A stretch of DNA of 64,000 nt from Halarchaeum rubridurum (GTDB lineage: Archaea; Halobacteriota; Halobacteria; Halobacteriales; Halobacteriaceae), in contig NZ_BMOO01000007.1 in assembly GCF_014647115.1 (NCBI RefSeq), positions 1 to 64,000 of the forward strand, written 5' to 3'. The notes beneath the pieces are model-generated. The model saw only the letters and a program-made list of their open reading frames with translations. It did no database searches and was not told the DNA's origin. The position numbers and the translations under genes are program-made. Below are positions 11,218 through 51,621 of the stretch, one piece after another. Within the stretch, counting starts at the first letter, position 1, and every line of letters starts with the position of its first letter.

Positions 11218-11268
11218 CCGCGCCGTACCCACCGCGCGCCGGCGGCGCGCGGGAGTTTTTAGTGGAGG

Positions 11269-11315
11269 TTTTTGCCGCGAGGGGTCGCGCAGAGCGCGAC
11301 CCCTCGCGGCAAAAA
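11269..11315. terminator. Perfect 22-bp hairpin between convergent genes
   Basis: Bases 11269-11290 and 11294-11315 are exact reverse complements with a 3-base AGA loop. The stem is flanked by T runs on the left and A runs on the right, so transcripts from either side would end in a GC hairpin plus U-run. It lies 5 bases past the PolD stop and downstream of the plus-strand membrane protein, so a bidirectional terminator is the simplest reading. Confidence 0.7.
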
Positions 11316-11319
11316 AGTC

Positions 11320-14300
11320 CTACATGAAGTCCGCGATGCCGCTCTGTTTGTTGTGGTCGTCCTCGAAGACGGATTCGAGGGAGGCCTCCAAGACCTCCAG
11401 GCGCTGTTTGGTGTACTCGCGGCAGTCGTACTCCTCCGCGACCTGGATGGCGGTGTCCATGTACTTGTTGACGGAGCCCTCGTGGACGGTGAGGTTGACC
11501 CGGCCGCCACACTCCCGGCAGTCACCCGAGAGGGGCATTCTCCTGTATTTCTCGCCGCAGTCGAGACAGCGCGTCTCCTGACGCGAGAACGCCCGGAGGT
11601 TCCCGATGAGGTCGGGGAGGAAGTGGCCCTCGATGACGCGCTCTGCGACGTCGGTCTCGTCGACGGCGCGGAGTTTTCGGGCGAGTTCGAGTTGGGCGTC
11701 CATCTTCTCCATCATCGAGCCGAGCGTCTTGTACGCCGACAGGTCGGGCCCGAGCGCGATGTCCGTGGTGTCGTGGGTGTGTCGGAAGCCCGTGTACTCG
11801 TCGTCGGTGCCGAGCGACGCCTCCGCGATGGTGATGTCGACGTCCTCGGGGTCCGCCATCTCCCGGGTCGCCTCGTAGAACTCCAGGGGGTACTGCTCGA
11901 CGACGTCCATGTTGTGCGCCTCGTCGTCGATCTCGCTCGGATCGATGCGGGAGGACATCACGAGGGGCGCGTCCATCTGACCACCGCGCTTGTCGGGGAG
12001 GTAGGACTTCGAGAAGTTCAGCAAGCCGTCCATCAGGAGCATCACGCAATCCTCGTCGCCGTCGCATTGATTTTCCGACAGGTCGTTGGCGACGAGCGAG
12101 TGCGTGTCTTCGACCGTGAGACAGTAGGTGTGTTCGGTGTCGGACTGGCGGTACTCGACGGCTGCGACTTCCTCGGCGAGGTAGTCGCCGTCGCCCCCGT
12201 CGAAGACGCGAGAGCCAGTCGGCTCGATGGTCGCAACGTGGTCGGCGAGTCGCTCGGCCTTTCGTGGTAAGTGGAAGCCTGCCCGTTCGTGGAACCGAAC
12301 GGCGTCGTCCGACGTCACGCGGATGACGTAGCTCGGGGCGGACATCGACTCGTCGGCGACGTCGTAGTGGTCTGGGAATTTCTCGGCGAGCGGAACCGGG
12401 TCCGTCGTCTCAACGCGGGCGGAGATTCCGAGACGCGTGAGCAACGCGAGGACGTCCTCCTTCAGCTCTCGACCGACCGTCGTCGCGGAGACGTTCAGAC
12501 CGTTCTTGTCGACGCCGCCGTCACCGCTGAAGTATCCGGAGAGATACGCACCGACGATAGCGTCGGGAGCGTCGAAGACGCACTGGGGAACGTGCTTCGT
12601 CTCGGCGTAGACCCCGCAGTCGAGGACGGTATCGAAGAACGCTCTGAGCAATCGGCCGGACGCCGTAACCTTCGCGTGGTTCTCACGGTAGGGGTCCGCG
12701 CCGAACTCCTCGCGGAGCACCTCGACGAAGAAGTCGCGGGCGTCGTCCTCGATGCCGCAGATCGTCGTTTGGTGGATGATCCCTTTCGGCGTCTCCTGCT
12801 CGCGTGCGAATCCTTCGGCGGCGTAGTACCCGAGGAGCGTGGCGACACGCTCGTTCAACTCGACGTGGCGGTCGATTTCGGTCGTGTCACGCTTCATCCC
12901 GAGCGTCACGTCGTCCGGAACGTGCTCGATTGTAGCCTCGGCGGAGCCGAACACTTCCACGAGGAGTGAGAACGGGACGCTCTCGCGGTAGACGTAGTTG
13001 CTCAGTGCTTTCTTCGTGAGACCGAGATACTCGGCCGTACTTTTCAAGGGGTAGAACCGTCCGTCCCAGTCGGCGGCGAGCGCGTCCTCGAACAAGTCGT
13101 AGAGGGCGTCGCGTTCGATCCCTTTGACGGTGAGTCGGTCGTTCTCGACCGCGTCACTCTGTGCGAACTCGTTGAGGAGGTCGAACGTCCGCGGTTCGTT
13201 TCCAATGTCGAGCGCGTCGAGGTGTGCGGGCTTAACGACGTGGTCGTCTTCGGACAGTTGTGCGGCCTCCTTCGACGCGATTTCACCGCCCTCGGAGACG
13301 TGGACTTCGTGGTCGGGCGTGACCGTGATTTCCCGGCCGCCGCGCGTCTCGACGTGAACCATGTGGTCGGGCGCGCAGTGTTTCGACACCGCGGTGACGG
13401 GCTTGCGGACGACGGTCCCGTTCTCGTCGACGGACGGGACGTGGACGTCGCCGTCGAGACGGTGGACGAGCGTCCCGAAGTCGTCCTCGGCGGCGGTCTC
13501 GGAGTCGAGGCGGTCCTCGACGAGCGTCTCGATGGCCTCGTAGTGCGTCTCACCGTGCTCGTCTTCGAACCAGACCTTGGTGTCGGGGTGGAAGCAGTTG
13601 CGGCGCTTGGCGGCGTGGAAGTACGGATGTGCGTACCCCACGGCCGCGCTCGTGAAGCCGACGACGCGGCCGACGACCGCGGCCGAGGTGTGGGGTGCCA
13701 TCCCGAAGACGAGTTCGCCGACGAGGTCGGCACGCTCCTCGACCTCGTAGAAGGGCTCCAACCCGTAGTACTCGTCCAGGAGGTCGTCGACGAAGTCCGC
13801 GGTCTTGAGCATGTGTTCGGCCGCGCCGTCGGGGAGGACGATGTCCTGCACGCGCAACTCGACGAGCTGGTCGTCGTGTTCGAGCGGGCGGCCCTCGACG
13901 TCCGTGTCGTAGCCGAGTTCGCGGAACTGCTCGACGGTGACGCCGAGTTCGGCGGGCCGGACGGACGTGACGGGGAGGTCCGTCATGTCGTAGCGGACGG
14001 TGCCGTCCTTGAACGTCGTGACGCCGTGTTTCGCCCGGAGAACGCCCTTCTCGATGGGTTCGGGGACTTTCTCCGTCGAGGTGAGCCCCTTGACGCCCTT
14101 GAGGATGTCGTAGGCGTTCTCGCGCTCGCCGACGTTCTGGAGGGCCTCGCGGTACGCGGAGCGGACGTCGACCGTTCGGCGCTCGACGTTGTCGAGTTCG
14201 CGCTCGCAGCGCGGGCACTCGACGCGGCCGGACTCGTCGGGATGCGCGACGACGCCGCAGTCCTCGCACTCGTAGTGGGGGTCGGTCCACGTCCCGCAGG

Positions 14301-16362
14301 ACTCACACCGGGGTTTATAGGTGTGCTCGCCGCAGTCCGGGCAGACGCGCTCGCCGAGTTGGACGTCGACGAGGCCCTGCTCGGCGCGCATGTCGGGGGC
14401 GTAGTCGGCGGCCTCGCGGAAGGAGCGCTGGCTCCCGCCGGCCTCGCCGATGGGGAAGAGCGTGTGGACGGCGGGCGAGAGGTCGCGCGACTCCGACTTC
14501 TCCGGGCGGCCCATCCGGTTGCCGATGCGCGTCGGGGCGCGCTCCTGGACGGCGAAGGGCGCGACTTCTTCGACGGCCCGCATCGCGTTCGGCCACTCGC
14601 GGGCGTCGTCGGAGAGGTCGGCCGCCGTCCAGTCGCGTTCGAGGTCGTCGTCGAAGCCGAGCGTGCGGACGAGCGGCCGCCAGTCGTCGACGGTGAGCGT
14701 CGCCTCGCCCTGCTCGTGCTCGACGAGGAGGCGTTCGAGCGCGCGGCGCGCGCCGTCGGTGTTCGGAAGTTGGAGGGCATCGTCCTGCACGGCCGCGCCG
14801 TCGACCGCGTCGGCGAGCGCCCGGAGGTCGTCCAAATCGAGGTCGTGCCAGGTGTAGGTGTACTTCGGGTGGAGCGGCGTGTCGTAGTCGCCCGCCCACG
14901 CGAGGGCCTGCTCGGCGTCCGGGTCGGCGAGGTCGACGTACGGCGAGTCGCGCAGCGCCTGGACGTCGGCGCCGTCCGCCGCGAACGCCTGCTCCCACCA
15001 CTCGACCGTCCACCCGGCGGGCGCGAGCGGGTGGTTGTTCTCCACGAACTCCCCGTAGTTCACGAGGTACTCGCCCAAATCGAGGATTTCGACGACGCCG
15101 TTCTGGACCTCGCGGGCCTCCGCGGGGTCGTCGATCCGCCGGACGTCGCCGTTGGCGAGTTTGACCGTCGGGCCCTCGATGGAGTCCACGGGGACGACGC
15201 CGCCAGCCTTCCCCGGGCGCTCCGTCTTTATTTGCGTCCCCGTGGCGAGGAAGTCGTCCACGACGTGCATCGTCGCGGGGTGGACGCCCGCCGTGGCGAA
15301 GCCGTGGTTGCGCGCGCGGCCGTAGCGCAGGCGAAATCCCCCCGCCTCGGAGGGGTGGCCGAACACCGGCCGGCCCGCGATGAGGTCGCGGAGGTACTTC
15401 GAGGCGGGCTCGACGCGCGGCGGGCCCTCGACGTCTGCGTCGTCACCCTCGCCGTCGCCGTCCCCGTCGTCGCCCGCGCCCGCGTCACCGTCGCCGACCT
15501 CGTCGCCCTCGCCGCCCCCGTCGTAGTACGTGCCGTCGATGAGGTCCTGGAGCCACGGCCACTCGACCTCGTCGAGTTGGCGCGTGTAGCGCTGAATCTT
15601 CGGGGCCTTGAGCGCGATCCCCTCCGCGAGCACGAGACACATCCCGCCGCGCGCGGAGTTCGTGTTCACGCGTTCGAGGTCGCGGAAGCCCGAGACCTCC
15701 TCGTCGCCCGTGGCCTCCCCGTCCAGCATGATGGGCATGTGCTCGGCGATGAACCTCGTCTCTGTATCCTTCGGCGAGTACTGGAGGCCCGTCTCGTCGT
15801 CGTAGAGCGAGACCTCCTCCGCGTAGCGCTCGACCTCGTCGGCGCGGGCGGCGTACTGCTCGATGCCGAGCAGGGAGCGCGCGTAGTCCGCGACGAGCAC
15901 GCTGAGGGCCTGTGCGGTGCCGCCCGCAGAGCGAATCGGTCCCGCGTAGTAGACGTTCACGAACTCCGTGCCGTCGTCGTTCGTCAGTAACTCGACGCGG
16001 TCGATGCCCTCGATGGGCGCGGCGACGACGCCCTCCGTGAGGAGTGCGACCGCGGTGCGGACCGCGCCCTCTATCTTCCCCGCGCGGGTGTCGTAGTCAC
16101 CGACGGAGCCCTCGACGAAGTCCTCGACGAGCGCGAGCGCCGCCTCCTCGCGCCCCATCTCGCCCTCCAGTTCGCGCACGCGCTCCGCGACGCCGTCGAT
16201 TCCGAGGATGTTCTCGACGCGGTCCGCCATGTCGCGCGCGACCGGGATTTCGACCTCGGGGACCGGGTCCTCCCCGCGGGTCTTCGCCGCCACCGCGACC
16301 TCGAAGGCCTCGTCCAACCGCGATTCGAGTCCCTCGAAGTAGGCGTCGTCTTCCGGGCGCAT
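11320..16362 (-). CDS. polC: DNA polymerase D large subunit (DP2) with in-frame intein
   Basis: Catalytic subunit of the archaeal replicative polymerase PolD. The precursor is 1680 aa; without the intein it is about 1170, normal for DP2. Seen in order: conserved N-terminal region, YYAGPIRSAGGTAQAL, an Asp/Gly-rich haloarchaeal insertion near 280-315, zinc knuckles near 670-730 (CPDCGEH, CESCGTW, CEDCG, CPRCE), HPYFHAAKRRN, then after the intein CDGDEDCVMLLMDGLLNFS with the catalytic aspartates, and a C-terminal zinc module (CLDCGEK, CRECGG). Start MRPEDDAYFEGLE at 16362 is preferred to an in-frame ATG at 16437, whose extra residues look non-coding. Confidence 0.97.
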   Translation of the reverse strand: MRPEDDAYFEGLESRLDEAFEVAVAAKTRGEDPVPEVEIPVARDMADRVENILGIDGVAERVRELEGEMGREEAALALVEDFVEGSVGDYDTRAGKIEGAVRTAVALLTEGVVAAPIEGIDRVELLTNDDGTEFVNVYYAGPIRSAGGTAQALSVLVADYARSLLGIEQYAARADEVERYAEEVSLYDDETGLQYSPKDTETRFIAEHMPIMLDGEATGDEEVSGFRDLERVNTNSARGGMCLVLAEGIALKAPKIQRYTRQLDEVEWPWLQDLIDGTYYDGGGEGDEVGDGDAGAGDDGDGDGEGDDADVEGPPRVEPASKYLRDLIAGRPVFGHPSEAGGFRLRYGRARNHGFATAGVHPATMHVVDDFLATGTQIKTERPGKAGGVVPVDSIEGPTVKLANGDVRRIDDPAEAREVQNGVVEILDLGEYLVNYGEFVENNHPLAPAGWTVEWWEQAFAADGADVQALRDSPYVDLADPDAEQALAWAGDYDTPLHPKYTYTWHDLDLDDLRALADAVDGAAVQDDALQLPNTDGARRALERLLVEHEQGEATLTVDDWRPLVRTLGFDDDLERDWTAADLSDDAREWPNAMRAVEEVAPFAVQERAPTRIGNRMGRPEKSESRDLSPAVHTLFPIGEAGGSQRSFREAADYAPDMRAEQGLVDVQLGERVCPDCGEHTYKPRCESCGTWTDPHYECEDCGVVAHPDESGRVECPRCERELDNVERRTVDVRSAYREALQNVGERENAYDILKGVKGLTSTEKVPEPIEKGVLRAKHGVTTFKDGTVRYDMTDLPVTSVRPAELGVTVEQFRELGYDTDVEGRPLEHDDQLVELRVQDIVLPDGAAEHMLKTADFVDDLLDEYYGLEPFYEVEERADLVGELVFGMAPHTSAAVVGRVVGFTSAAVGYAHPYFHAAKRRNCFHPDTKVWFEDEHGETHYEAIETLVEDRLDSETAAEDDFGTLVHRLDGDVHVPSVDENGTVVRKPVTAVSKHCAPDHMVHVETRGGREITVTPDHEVHVSEGGEIASKEAAQLSEDDHVVKPAHLDALDIGNEPRTFDLLNEFAQSDAVENDRLTVKGIERDALYDLFEDALAADWDGRFYPLKSTAEYLGLTKKALSNYVYRESVPFSLLVEVFGSAEATIEHVPDDVTLGMKRDTTEIDRHVELNERVATLLGYYAAEGFAREQETPKGIIHQTTICGIEDDARDFFVEVLREEFGADPYRENHAKVTASGRLLRAFFDTVLDCGVYAETKHVPQCVFDAPDAIVGAYLSGYFSGDGGVDKNGLNVSATTVGRELKEDVLALLTRLGISARVETTDPVPLAEKFPDHYDVADESMSAPSYVIRVTSDDAVRFHERAGFHLPRKAERLADHVATIEPTGSRVFDGGDGDYLAEEVAAVEYRQSDTEHTYCLTVEDTHSLVANDLSENQCDGDEDCVMLLMDGLLNFSKSYLPDKRGGQMDAPLVMSSRIDPSEIDDEAHNMDVVEQYPLEFYEATREMADPEDVDITIAEASLGTDDEYTGFRHTHDTTDIALGPDLSAYKTLGSMMEKMDAQLELARKLRAVDETDVAERVIEGHFLPDLIGNLRAFSRQETRCLDCGEKYRRMPLSGDCRECGGRVNLTVHEGSVNKYMDTAIQVAEEYDCREYTKQRLEVLEASLESVFEDDHNKQSGIADFM
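12067..13596 (-). other. Intein in PolD DP2 (LAGLIDADG endonuclease type, 510 aa)
   Basis: In-frame insertion between RRN and CDGDED, precursor residues 923-1432. It begins with Cys (CFHPDTKVWFEDEHGE), has a block-B TxxH-type segment (ITVTPDHEVHV) and a C-terminal block (EDTHSLVANDLSENQ) followed by extein Cys1433. Dodecapeptide motifs LLGYYAAEGFA (about intein residue 253) and YLSGYFSGDGGVDKNG (about 350) mark a homing endonuclease. The last intein residue is Gln, not the usual Asn; a C-terminal Gln is also known for the Pyrococcus abyssi PolII intein. By eye the base composition is less GC-rich than in the flanking exteins. Confidence 0.95.
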
Positions 16363-16544
16363 CAGTTCACGACACGTACAGCGCTGACGCTCTTGAGGAT
16401 TGTGCTCGGCGCGTCGGCGGTCGCTCGCGGGTCGCACGACACGTCACCGCGCGCTACTCGCGCCTCGCTTCGCTCAGCGCTCGTCGTTCTCGGACCCTCG
16501 CTTCGCTCTGCTCCGCGCTACTCACGGCTCCGCCGTTCGTCGTT

Positions 16545-39676: not shown

Positions 39677-40312
39677 ATGACGCTGGTCGCGTTCGACTTC
39701 GACGGGACGCTCTCGGACTCGGAGATGATGGTGTTGCTCGGCGAGCAGTACGGCGTCGCCGAGGAGATCGAGGAGATAACGACGCGCGCGATGCGCGGCG
39801 AACTCTCCTACGCGGAATCGCTCTACGAGCGCGCCGCGCTCTTAGAGGGACTCCCCGAGGCCGAAGCGCGGGCGGCCTACGAGCAGATCTACCTCCGGCC
39901 GGGCGCGGCCGACCTCATCGCCGCGCTGAACGACGCCGGTCACACCACCGCCATCCTCACCGGCGGCTTCACGCCCGGCGTCGAGGCCGCCCTCGAACGC
40001 GACGGCGCCGAGGTCGACCACGTCGTCGCCAACGAACTCCCCGTCGAAGACGGCCACCTCACCGGCGACGCCGACGGCCCCCTCATCGAGGGGACGAAGG
40101 ACGAGGCCCTGGAGGCGCTCTGCATGGAGACGAACACCGACATGGACGACACCGTCGCGGTCGGCGACGGCGCGAACGACCTCCCCATGCTCAAGGTCGC
40201 CGGCACCGCCGTCGGCTTCGTCCCCAAGCCCGCAGTGCGCCCGCACTGCGACGTCGTCGTCGCCACGATGGACCGCCTCACGCGCGTCTTCGAGGAGGAC
40301 GGCCTGCTGTAA
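39677..40312 (+). CDS. serB: Phosphoserine phosphatase
   Basis: HAD-family hydrolase of 211 aa giving serine from phosphoserine. HAD motif I is AFDFDGTLSDSE, motif II LTGGFTPGVEAAL, and motif IV DTVAVGDGANDLPMLKVAG; FVPKPAVRPHCDVVV closes the family pattern. It is divergent from serA, so the two serine genes share the 217-base region 39460-39676, in which CTATATAC at about 39560 is a further TATA candidate. Its stop runs straight into a palindrome array. Confidence 0.94.
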   Translation: MTLVAFDFDGTLSDSEMMVLLGEQYGVAEEIEEITTRAMRGELSYAESLYERAALLEGLPEAEARAAYEQIYLRPGAADLIAALNDAGHTTAILTGGFTPGVEAALERDGAEVDHVVANELPVEDGHLTGDADGPLIEGTKDEALEALCMETNTDMDDTVAVGDGANDLPMLKVAGTAVGFVPKPAVRPHCDVVVATMDRLTRVFEEDGLL

Positions 40313-40733
40313 ACGACCTTTTGCTGCGCTCGGGCGCGCTTCGCGCGCCCGGCGCTAGCAAACGCTCGGCCAAAAGCCGTCGTCGGGTGCTTCGCACCCT
40401 CCTCGGCCTCGCCTCCGGCGAGCGAATCGGCGACCCTCCGGGCTCTTCGAGCCACTCGGTCGCCGAACGCTATACGTGTGGTTCGTTAGGCCACGGCGAA
40501 AAAACGGGACAGACTACGAAAGAGCGTCCGCGCGACGAGCGGCTCGTCAGAGCCCGGTAGTCGGGTGAGAACGTCGTTCTCACTGACCCACACTCGGGCC
40601 CGCGGCCCTCGCGTGGATCGTGCGGTTCACTCGCGGCGAAGCCGCGAGGTCCGAAGACCCCCGGGGGTCTGACGGACATTTTGGCCGACCTTTTGCCAGC
40701 GCTGACTTCGTCAGCGCGCAGCAAAAGGTCGTT
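40312..40733. repeat. Palindrome array between serB and metX with 18-bp inverted ends
   Basis: The region begins with AACGACCTTTTGCTGCGC (40312-40329) and ends with its exact reverse complement (40716-40733). TCGGCCAAAA in the left part and TTTTGGCCGA in the right part make a second inverted pair, so the two ends share one fold: GACCTTTTGC, a variable GC hairpin, then GCAAA. Between them lie at least eight short stem-loops, many with TTCG loops (GGTGC-TTC-GCACC, GTGAGAACG/CGTTCTCAC, CGCGGC/GCCGCG, GACCCC/GGGGTC). No gene is seen. Likely the two convergent genes' terminators plus a structured insert. Confidence 0.75.
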
Positions 40734-41915
40734 AGGCGTCGGGCAGCAGGCCCGTACAGACGCGCGGGTAGTCGGGCGTGGTCTGTCGGTCGGCCTCGGT
40801 GGTGACGGCGCTCGCGCCGCGTTCGAGGAGGGTGCGGACCGGCGGGCCGACGCGGTCGGGTTCGACGAGGAAGGCGTCGTGGCCGTAGTCGCTCTCGATG
40901 ACGCGGTGGACGGCGGCACCGGGCCCGCTCTCGAAGGCGTCGGCGATGGTGTCGCCGCCCTCGGGGGGGAAGTGCCAGTCGCCGGTGAAGGAGAGGACGA
41001 GCGCGTCGCCCTCGTAGTCGGCGAGCGCGGCGGCGTCCGAGTTGTAGTCCGCCGCGAGGTCGTACTCGTCGAGCGCGCGCAGGAGGTAGAGGTAGCTGTT
41101 GGCGTCGAAGCGCTCGGTGAAGCGCTCGGCGTTGTAGTCGAGGTAGGAGGCGACGTCCCGGTAGGGGAAGCCGCGCGCGCTCGGGTCGTCGAGGTCGTCG
41201 GGGCGTCGCTCGGCGACGCGGCGGTCGAAGCGGTCGGTCATGGAGGCCTTCGAGAGATACATGACGTGGCCGATGCGGCGCGCGACGGCGAGCCCCTCGT
41301 CGGGTTCGGGGCCGCCGTAGTAGTCCCCGTCGCCGTAGTTCGGGTCGCTCGTGATGGCGCGGCGCGCGGCGGTGTTGAGCCCGAGACACTGCGCGTCGAG
41401 GCGGGGGCTGGTGGCGATGGCGGCGATGCGTTCGACGCGCTCGGGGTAGCGCTTCGCCCAGTCGATGACGTTCATGCCGCCAACGCTGCCGCCGACGACG
41501 GCGTAGAGCGTGTCGACGCCGAGTTCGTCGCAGAGGCGGGCCTGCGAGCGCGTCCAGTCGCCGACGGTGACGGACGGGAAGTCGGGGCCGTAGGGCTCGC
41601 CGTCGGGGCCCTCGCTCGCGGGGCCGGTCGTGCCGTAGCAGGAGCCGGGGACGTTCGCGCAGACGACGTGGTAGGCGCGGGTGTCGATGGGTTTGCCGGG
41701 GCCGACGAGGGCGTCCCACCAGCCCGCGGCCTGGCCGCTGACGCCCTCGGGGGCGGGACCGGCGACGTACTGGCTCCCGGTGAGGGCGTGGCAGACGAGG
41801 ACGGTGGGGTCGGCGGGGTCGCCGTACTCGGCGTAGGCGACGTCGAGGTCGAGTTCGCCGCCGCGCTCGAACGCGAACGACCCGACGTTCGCGACGTCCT
41901 CGCGGCGGCCGTGGC

Positions 41916-51214: not shown

Positions 51215-51365
51215 ACGCGACGGCACGGCCAGCGCGGTGAAAAGGACGCCGAAGCGCGGGACTGCGAAGAAATCGCCTCGGAAGCGAGAGTCGGAGGTGG
51301 GCGTAGCGGAGTGCGGATACGCGTACTCGCGCGCAGCGCGAGTTTCACCGGTCGCCTCCGGCGAC

Positions 51366-51421
51366 CGGGAGTTTTTCTCCCGTGTTTTTGCAAGCGGGGG
51401 TTCGCCCCGCGAACCCCCCGC
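51366..51421. repeat. Repeat module CGGGAGTTTTT-N7-GTTTTTGC plus hairpin
   Basis: CGGGAGTTTTT (51366-51376), seven bases, GTTTTTGC (51384-51391), then the hairpin GCGGGGGTTCG/CGAACCCCCCGC (51394-51421) followed by an A-run. The same module with the same seven-base spacing and a different hairpin occurs at 11250-11315. Both lie at the 3' ends of minus-strand genes. Confidence 0.7.
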
Positions 51422-51435
51422 AGTAAAAAGACGGA

Positions 51436-51457
51436 CGGGCACGAAGGGATTCGAACC
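51436..51457. repeat. Duplicated 3' end of tRNA-Arg (possible attachment-site scar)
   Basis: 22 bases beginning CGGGCACG match the tRNA-Arg 3' end (51547-51568) with one mismatch, in the same orientation, 111 bases apart. A further inverted partial copy, CGAATCCC-A-CGTGCC, lies at 51501-51515. Such tRNA 3'-end duplications are made by integration of mobile elements; here little is left between the copies. Confidence 0.65.
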
Positions 51458-51546
51458 ACGGTCGGACGTTCTCACTCCGTTGCGCGCGACCTCACTGCTC
51501 CGAATCCCACGTGCCGTTTCGTCACTCGCGGCGCTCGTGACAGAAA

Positions 51547-51621
51547 CGGGCACGGAGGGATTCGAACCCCCGCGCTTCTGGTTAGAAGCCAGACGCTCTG
51601 TCCGAACTGAGCTACGTGCCC
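51547..51621 (-). tRNA. tRNA-Arg (anticodon TCT)
   Basis: A 75-base cloverleaf without CCA: acceptor GGGCACG/CGTGCCC, D arm GCTC-AGTTCGGACA-GAGC, anticodon stem TCTGG/CCAGA around the loop CTTCTAA (anticodon TCT, reading AGA), and a T arm with GGTTCGAATCC. The discriminator base is G. A CTTTTG element on the minus strand near 51645-51655 may be its promoter. A truncated copy of its 3' end lies downstream. Confidence 0.95.

Follow-up and report, generated by a model that had tools for sequence, protein, structure and literature searches.

The element and its surroundings

The window, that is, the whole stretch of 64,000 nucleotides of Halarchaeum rubridurum DNA analyzed here, contains two minus-strand genes whose 3' ends are faced by copies of the same short sequence module. 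One is a tRNA-Arg (TCT) gene at 51547-51621 (- strand), detected as an Rfam tRNA match and separated from the copy that we call the first by a 111-bp insertion. The other is a 1705-residue ORF at 11320-16437 (- strand), which on its translation we take to be a polC-type gene (DNA polymerase II large subunit type); the A-run of the second copy ends 3 nt from its stop codon. The translation of this ORF also shows an apparent insert (CFHPDTKVW...HSLVANDLSENQC) that is presumably intein-like.

The initial annotation had described the module as two words separated by exactly seven bases, with a GC hairpin and then an A-run behind them, and had placed it at the 3' ends of minus-strand transcription units. 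The words and their spacing are indeed exact at 11250-11275 and 51366-51391 on the + strand, the hairpin and the A-run (A6 at 11311-11316 and A5 at 51425-51429) follow in both cases, and the placement behind minus-strand units holds. Even with up to three mismatches allowed, these are the only matches to the spaced box in the window. A chance origin of the box can be rejected, as none of 100 dinucleotide shuffles of the window had even one match and the reversed-pattern control likewise gave none. Two parts of the earlier description need revision: the CGGGAG word is not part of a constant core but the end of an upstream hairpin (51348-51368 and 11232-11252), and the seven-base gap cannot be regarded as neutral, since some of its bases pair with those 3' of the A-run.

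Dissection of the first copy begins on the + strand with an optional hairpin, H1 (CTCGCGC-GCA-GCGCGAG, 51326-51342), for which a counterpart at the same position was seen by eye in many of the copies that we printed. It is followed by H2 (51348-51368), a hairpin with a 9-bp stem and then GAG and T5, which resembles an intrinsic terminator on this strand. The core (51372-51434, +; 69.9 bits, E 1.4e-10 with a covariance model) comprises a T5 tract (51372-51376), the spacer CTCCCGTG (51377-51384), a further T5 tract (51385-51389), hairpin H3 (51390-51424), an A5 tract (51425-51429) and the partner GACGG (51430-51434), with CCGT of the spacer pairing with ACGG of the partner. Folded as DNA, its + strand reaches -22.1 kcal/mol (z -6.0) and its - strand -18.1 (z -4.0). 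The second copy has its own H2 (11232-11252, +) and a core at 11256-11320 (+; 69.7 bits by the covariance model) made of T5 (11256-11260), the spacer AGTGGAGG (11261-11268), T5 (11269-11273), H3 (11274-11310), A6 (11311-11316) and the partner GTCC (11317-11320), which overlaps the polC stop codon (11320-11322, -) by one base. Here the two strands fold almost equally well (-34.3 kcal/mol on + and -33.9 on -).

Two weaker candidates lie elsewhere in the window: one at 40309-40383 on the - strand (E 0.051), with tracts TTTT, GTTT and AAAA, the spacer GGCCGAGC and the partner GGTCG, and another at 40671-40736 on the + strand (L088 1863-1928; 27.3 bits), with tracts T4, T4 and A4. They are oppositely oriented, about 290 bp apart, and each is 5-6 nt from a called gene end.

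A structured repeat family of haloarchaea

Side-by-side comparison of copies yielded a common core, which on the + strand reads T5, an 8-nt spacer, T5, GC, a variable hairpin, A5 and a partner of about 5 nt, and is frequently preceded by a GC hairpin. The fuller layout is an optional H1, TTCAC/C, H2, about 3 nt, T5, the 8-nt spacer, T5, GC, H3, A5 and the partner, giving an element of about 60-100 nt. With a covariance model built from 25 copies and a threshold of E<=0.01, matches were recovered in 33 of 40 genomes, including that of H. rubridurum. The initial annotation had offered a dispersed repeat family as one of two explanations and had named the lack of further copies as evidence to the contrary; the family is supported, the genome itself containing 22 matches at 21 places, one match being the reverse-strand reflection of the 11256 copy. 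The highest count was 51, in the genome G028, and all such counts are lower bounds, with 38-150 candidates scored per genome. We gathered 209 distinct copies, of which 201 could be parsed. For the first T, second T and A tracts, the lengths 5/5/5 were found in 130, 5/5/6 in 20 and 4/4/4 in 15 of the 201. Simple words tell the same story on a smaller scale: the H. rubridurum genome (2.81 Mb) has six occurrences of the gapped word GAGTTTTT-N(4-12)-TTTTT, and 13 of 40 genomes, this one included, contain GAGTTTTT-N(4-10)-TTTTTGC, the reversed control being zero for each. The spacer AGCGTAG frequently accompanies the latter word in one genus (g4), and 8-nt spacer words such as AGCGTAGC recur at many loci in many genera. 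The sequences of H3 vary freely between copies while their complementarity is kept.

Model R1 matched 13 of 19 genomes of the same order (H. rubridurum included) versus 6 of 101 others, 81 of the latter being unlisted genomes taken as lying outside the order; the six matching genomes have one or two weak matches each. An exact subtype word was found in at least 120 stretches among GTDB contigs, and 76 of 80 among the matches listed bear haloarchaeal names. As for the other four, L353, from a metagenome-assembled genome named Thermoplasmata, matches R1, and L341, L345 and L383 do not; ten of ten haloarchaeal loci tried beside them do. The family is present across the order and hardly outside it. 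A known Rfam family was rejected as its identity, since among the Rfam covariance models only the tRNA model matched the window, leaving the element without a family, and on five element loci the sole match was to mir-598, far below its gathering score. Literature searches, which cover subscription journals thinly, returned no description of the family among the matches listed, and the longer words of the box were absent from the papers among those matches. From these results we conclude that the two window copies are members of a real, order-wide, structured haloarchaeal repeat family.

Covariation and strand asymmetry

Pairing links the spacer to the bases that directly follow the A-tract: the longest Watson-Crick run between spacer and partner averages 3.10 over 58 distinct spacers, as opposed to 1.66 with permuted partners, and none of 5000 permutations reaches 3.10. 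The first three pairs below the tracts display a G.G opposition in 184 of 201 copies (49 of 58 distinct spacers) and never a C.C; immediately inside the tracts, the pair was counted as G.T in 89, G-C in 47, G.G in 45, C-G in 10 and A-T in 10. H3 is closed by a triloop in 156 of 193 distinct hairpins, with GNA (105) and TNC (23) among them; GNA triloops are very stable DNA mini-hairpins. When segments were folded, the + strand was the more stable in 103 of 119 and the - strand in 8 of 119. The G.G mismatch, the G.T pair and the GNA triloops favor folding of the + strand. A contrary count comes from the stems, which when read on the + strand contain more A.C than G.T (H3, 55 vs 25; H2, 49 vs 43; 124 copies); we give it less weight because many of the counted cells may sit in shared modules. 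The polC copy of the window, with its nearly equal folds on the two strands, likewise departs from the asymmetry. Counts on smaller sets or with another score pointed in the same direction as those reported. On balance, the constrained form seems to be the single-stranded + strand, whether as RNA or as DNA.

The length of the first T-tract also tracks that of the second (Fisher p 2e-4, 58 distinct spacers). This correlation, together with the G.U and G.G pairs and the GNA loops of the + strand, could be taken to mean that the two U-tracts and the A-tract of a + transcript form a U.A-U triple helix that protects the 3' end of the RNA. We consider this improbable to the point of being the least likely of the readings weighed here: the gene to the left lies on the - strand nearly as often as on the + strand (see below), so that a + transcript is not assured, and the link between tract lengths may reflect the history of subfamilies.

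Placement relative to genes

By our own gene calls, made with a codon-score script rather than a published caller, each of the 201 parsed copies falls between genes. In 124 of them a - strand gene on the right has its stop codon 2-15 nt from the A-tract (at most 11 nt in 123), a pattern at odds with the random placement that had been named as counter-evidence. The word typical of a tRNA 3' end occurs within 40 nt after the copy in 19 of 201; a further 24 copies outside the stop-codon and tRNA classes have a flanking repeat, and 34 fall outside all three placements. The left-hand neighbor among the 124 is on the + strand in 62, on the - strand in 59 and not called in 3; this evenness indicates that the right-hand gene is the one with which the element is associated in the largest class.

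Read on the - strand, the order is stop codon, a few nucleotides and T5, as in a T-stretch terminator, and on the + strand of both window copies it is the GC hairpin H2, GAG and T5, as in an intrinsic terminator. A T5 within 20 nt of the stop codon is found at 4 of the 44 called genes of the window, polC being one of them, and is hence not general there.

Signatures of insertion

Local alignment identified a direct repeat across the element in 29 of 201 copies versus 2 of 201 when a random partner was used. The start of the repeat falls 4-12 nt past the A-tract in 26 of the 29, with 11 of these starting at +5 exactly, and the lengths of the 26 range from 24 to 166 nt. Such right-end repeats accompany about 13% of copies (26/201), and most copies are without them. 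For 22 of the 26, the left repeat copy corresponds to the 3' tail of the left-hand gene, often including the stop codon, and two of the remaining four look tRNA-like; no clear case of a duplicated tail of the right-hand protein gene was encountered among the traced part of the 29 repeats. Several repeats are then followed by a second, partial element. Nested arrays were observed at L075 (G000 C1, about 221500-221900) and L221, with two different elements, each followed by the same gene tail again. Comparison of first and second tails by codon position (22 comparisons) gave 70 differences, 46 of them at third positions and 41 synonymous, a pattern that fits both target duplication and a tail acquired from another strain. 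To our knowledge, repeats of 24-166 nt match no transposase family.

Related genomes were also seen to differ in whether a given site carries a copy. At the ETF-alpha locus of 13 g4 genomes, inspected by eye, the element with a second tail is found in G012, G006, G020 and G016, remnants in G018, G022, G023 and G041, and no trace in G015, G017, G019, G021 and G040; the DNA past the second tail in G012 continues like that past the stop codon in the empty G019. A survey by eye of about 150 nt downstream of polC (31 loci inspected, 58 genomes having a match) located the element in G000, G002, G009 and G028; G003 has it in decayed form, G010 in reversed orientation together with a tail repeat, and G030 and G048 in a divergent form. 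In this divergent form (L170 and L169, respectively), which reads T-tract-GC-hairpin-GCAAAA, the spacer is new but its pairing with bases beyond the stop codon is retained, and R1 had no match at E<=0.01 at either locus. We count the flanking repeats, the gene tails and the ETF-alpha and polC sites in favor of insertion, and insertion as a unit appears supported for a minority of copies.

Between the first window copy and tRNA-Arg, the 111-bp insertion (51436-51546), absent from the congener G002, holds a 22-bp direct repeat of the tRNA-Arg 3' end (21/22 identical). By eye, it looks like a decayed tRNA-like sequence with a hairpin and is itself no element copy; Rfam made no tRNA call on it.

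Candidate mobilizing enzymes

Guide and cleavage pairing is a feature of the ends of IS200/IS605-type transposons, and the element would resemble such an end in one respect, namely the guide-like pairing across the hairpin. Among 32 genomes that are at least 90% complete, copy number shows no relation to the counts of Y1_Tnp (rho -0.03) or TnpB (rho -0.02); of the 21 of these with at least 10 matches, 9 are without Y1_Tnp, and G028, with its 51 matches, has none. The element was found at 0 of 30 fetched TnpB loci, out of far more TnpB matches, and in the fetched flanks of 2 of 30 Y1 loci. IS200/IS605, RAYT and TnpB were accordingly rejected as the mover, given the lack of correlation and of shared ends in the fetched loci, and the element fails those membership tests for an IS200/IS605 end that gave an answer.

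Interpretation

We place at about even chances the reading that the box is the left half of an element of about 60-100 nt, which was inserted or copied as a unit at gene 3' ends and has been kept there as a very short two-way terminator. The proposal of a two-way stop stems from the inward T-tracts on both strands, namely the T5 past the - strand stop codon and the T5-N8-T5 on the + strand. RNA polymerase coming from either side would be released at its own T-tract, and neither RNA would then enter the neighboring gene. As for the spread of the element, an enzyme may recognize the single-stranded + fold, with the spacer-partner duplex acting like the guide and cleavage pairing described above, and the insertion would duplicate the gene tail. 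The termination or processing signal that the initial annotation had offered as its other explanation gains support from placement, and a two-way T-tract terminator is the role that we infer as best supported when placement is combined with the activity of T5C, which stopped 95% of transcripts in Haloferax volcanii in the published data accessible to us (PMC7237163). Some observations count against it: on the - strand the T5 precedes the hairpin, so that the element is not a bacterial-type terminator on that side, and the + fold lies antisense to the right-hand gene, a feature left unexplained by termination alone. The reading of an inserted two-way terminator is further weakened by the excess of A.C over G.T in the stems, the nearly equal strand folds of the polC copy, the small share of copies with flanking repeats and the unusual lengths of these, the 34 copies that fit none of the three placements and the scarcity of T5 near stop codons in the window.

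An alternative, which we hold to be unlikely if still the strongest of the rivals, is that the terminator evolved in place by selection and is not mobile, the likeness between copies coming from shared constraints (T-tracts, hairpins) and lineage history, and the tail repeats from replication slippage or tandem duplication at palindromes. Such a history has in its favor the free divergence of the hairpins with retained complementarity, some tail repeats that, as in tandem duplication, lead into another element in partial or decayed form (L068, L073, L249), and the occurrence of the element behind polC in several families. It sits poorly with the recurrence of the same 8-nt spacer words at many loci and in many genera, with the 5 of 13 ETF-alpha sites that lack any trace of the element and with the confinement of right-hand repeat starts to a narrow range. 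Considerably less probable is that the element is a PATE- or REP-like relic, namely the solo end of a transposon of the IS200/IS605 or IS1341 type, with a Y1 transposase as its mover. The guide-like spacer 5' of the hairpin foot, its pairing 3' of the hairpin and the signs of one-strand folding all agree with this, and PATEs have been described in Haloquadratum (PMC3119063); these, however, are reported there, as far as the portion of that paper at hand extends, without target duplication, and the absence of any link to Y1_Tnp or TnpB has already weakened this explanation.

Returning to the inserted two-way terminator, we read the element as a transposase-free, REP/PATE-like insertion. A more elaborate version, which is speculative and clearly less probable than the general one, would have it as an enzyme-less haloarchaeal mobile "terminator cassette" that folds as a single strand, has a sharp right end near A5 plus 5 nt, lands behind genes, duplicates their 3' tail and supplies a new two-way stop. 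In such a cassette the spacer-partner duplex would be the recognition code, and the three tracts (T1-T2-A) might form a triplex (T.A-T, or U.A-U) that withstands multimolar salt.

Signals for the end of archaeal transcription have been described mainly as T-stretches, in the parts of the literature examined. A structured, order-wide element lying bases away from stop codons would, if the reading is correct, add a testable two-way stop signal to these. The insertion signature, a long tail duplication for which none of the transposases tested is a match, suggests a route of spreading not yet described, and the family could account for many haloarchaeal intergenic palindromes and gene-tail duplications.

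Comparison with known systems

The closest bacterial parallel in genomic habit is with the REP/BIME sequences, which are dispersed intergenic palindromes behind genes, asymmetric between strands and devoid of coding capacity, with a GTAG/GGAG tetranucleotide at the 5' foot. The present element shares the numerous dispersed intergenic palindromic copies (up to 51 matches per genome; 201/201 intergenic). It differs in that its hairpin sequences are not conserved, it lacks a Y1_Tnp (RAYT) link and it has long tail repeats; GTAG occurs in the AGCGTAG subtype and GGAG in some copies, with many of the 119 tabulated having neither. As regards MITEs, no terminal inverted repeats were noticed by eye in 126 printed copies, and in place of short target duplications the element has repeats of 24-166 nt in a minority of copies. 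It also resembles the bidirectional intrinsic terminators of bacteria in its proposed role as a two-way stop between genes, but these are ordered A-tract, hairpin, T-tract, and the element T-tract, hairpin, A-tract. The intrinsic order of a GC hairpin followed by a T-tract is present on the + strand of both window copies and reversed on the - strand.

Among haloarchaeal systems, the PATE and SMR repeats of Haloquadratum are likewise transposase-free and mobile; in the text available to us, PATEs have near-terminal palindromes and are related to IS605 ends, SMR-A is about 110 bp, SMRs have terminal inverted repeats, and both kinds are reported without target duplication (PMC3119063). By comparison, the palindromes of the element were not shared with an IS605/IS1341 transposon at any of the 30 fetched TnpB loci, and the repeats at the right end of 26 of 201 copies, absent from most, are compatible with both target and tandem duplication. 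Its spacer/partner covariation has the form of IS605 guide pairing, cleavage aside. Placement at stop codons, where the element mostly lies, is not mentioned for PATE and SMR in that same text (PMC3119063). The account of the Haloferax volcanii T5C terminators, in the part accessible to us, mentions no repeat family, covarying spacer and partner or two-way element (PMC7237163); the likeness to them lies in the T5 at intergenic 3' ends, the hairpins upstream of some and the haloarchaeal hosts.
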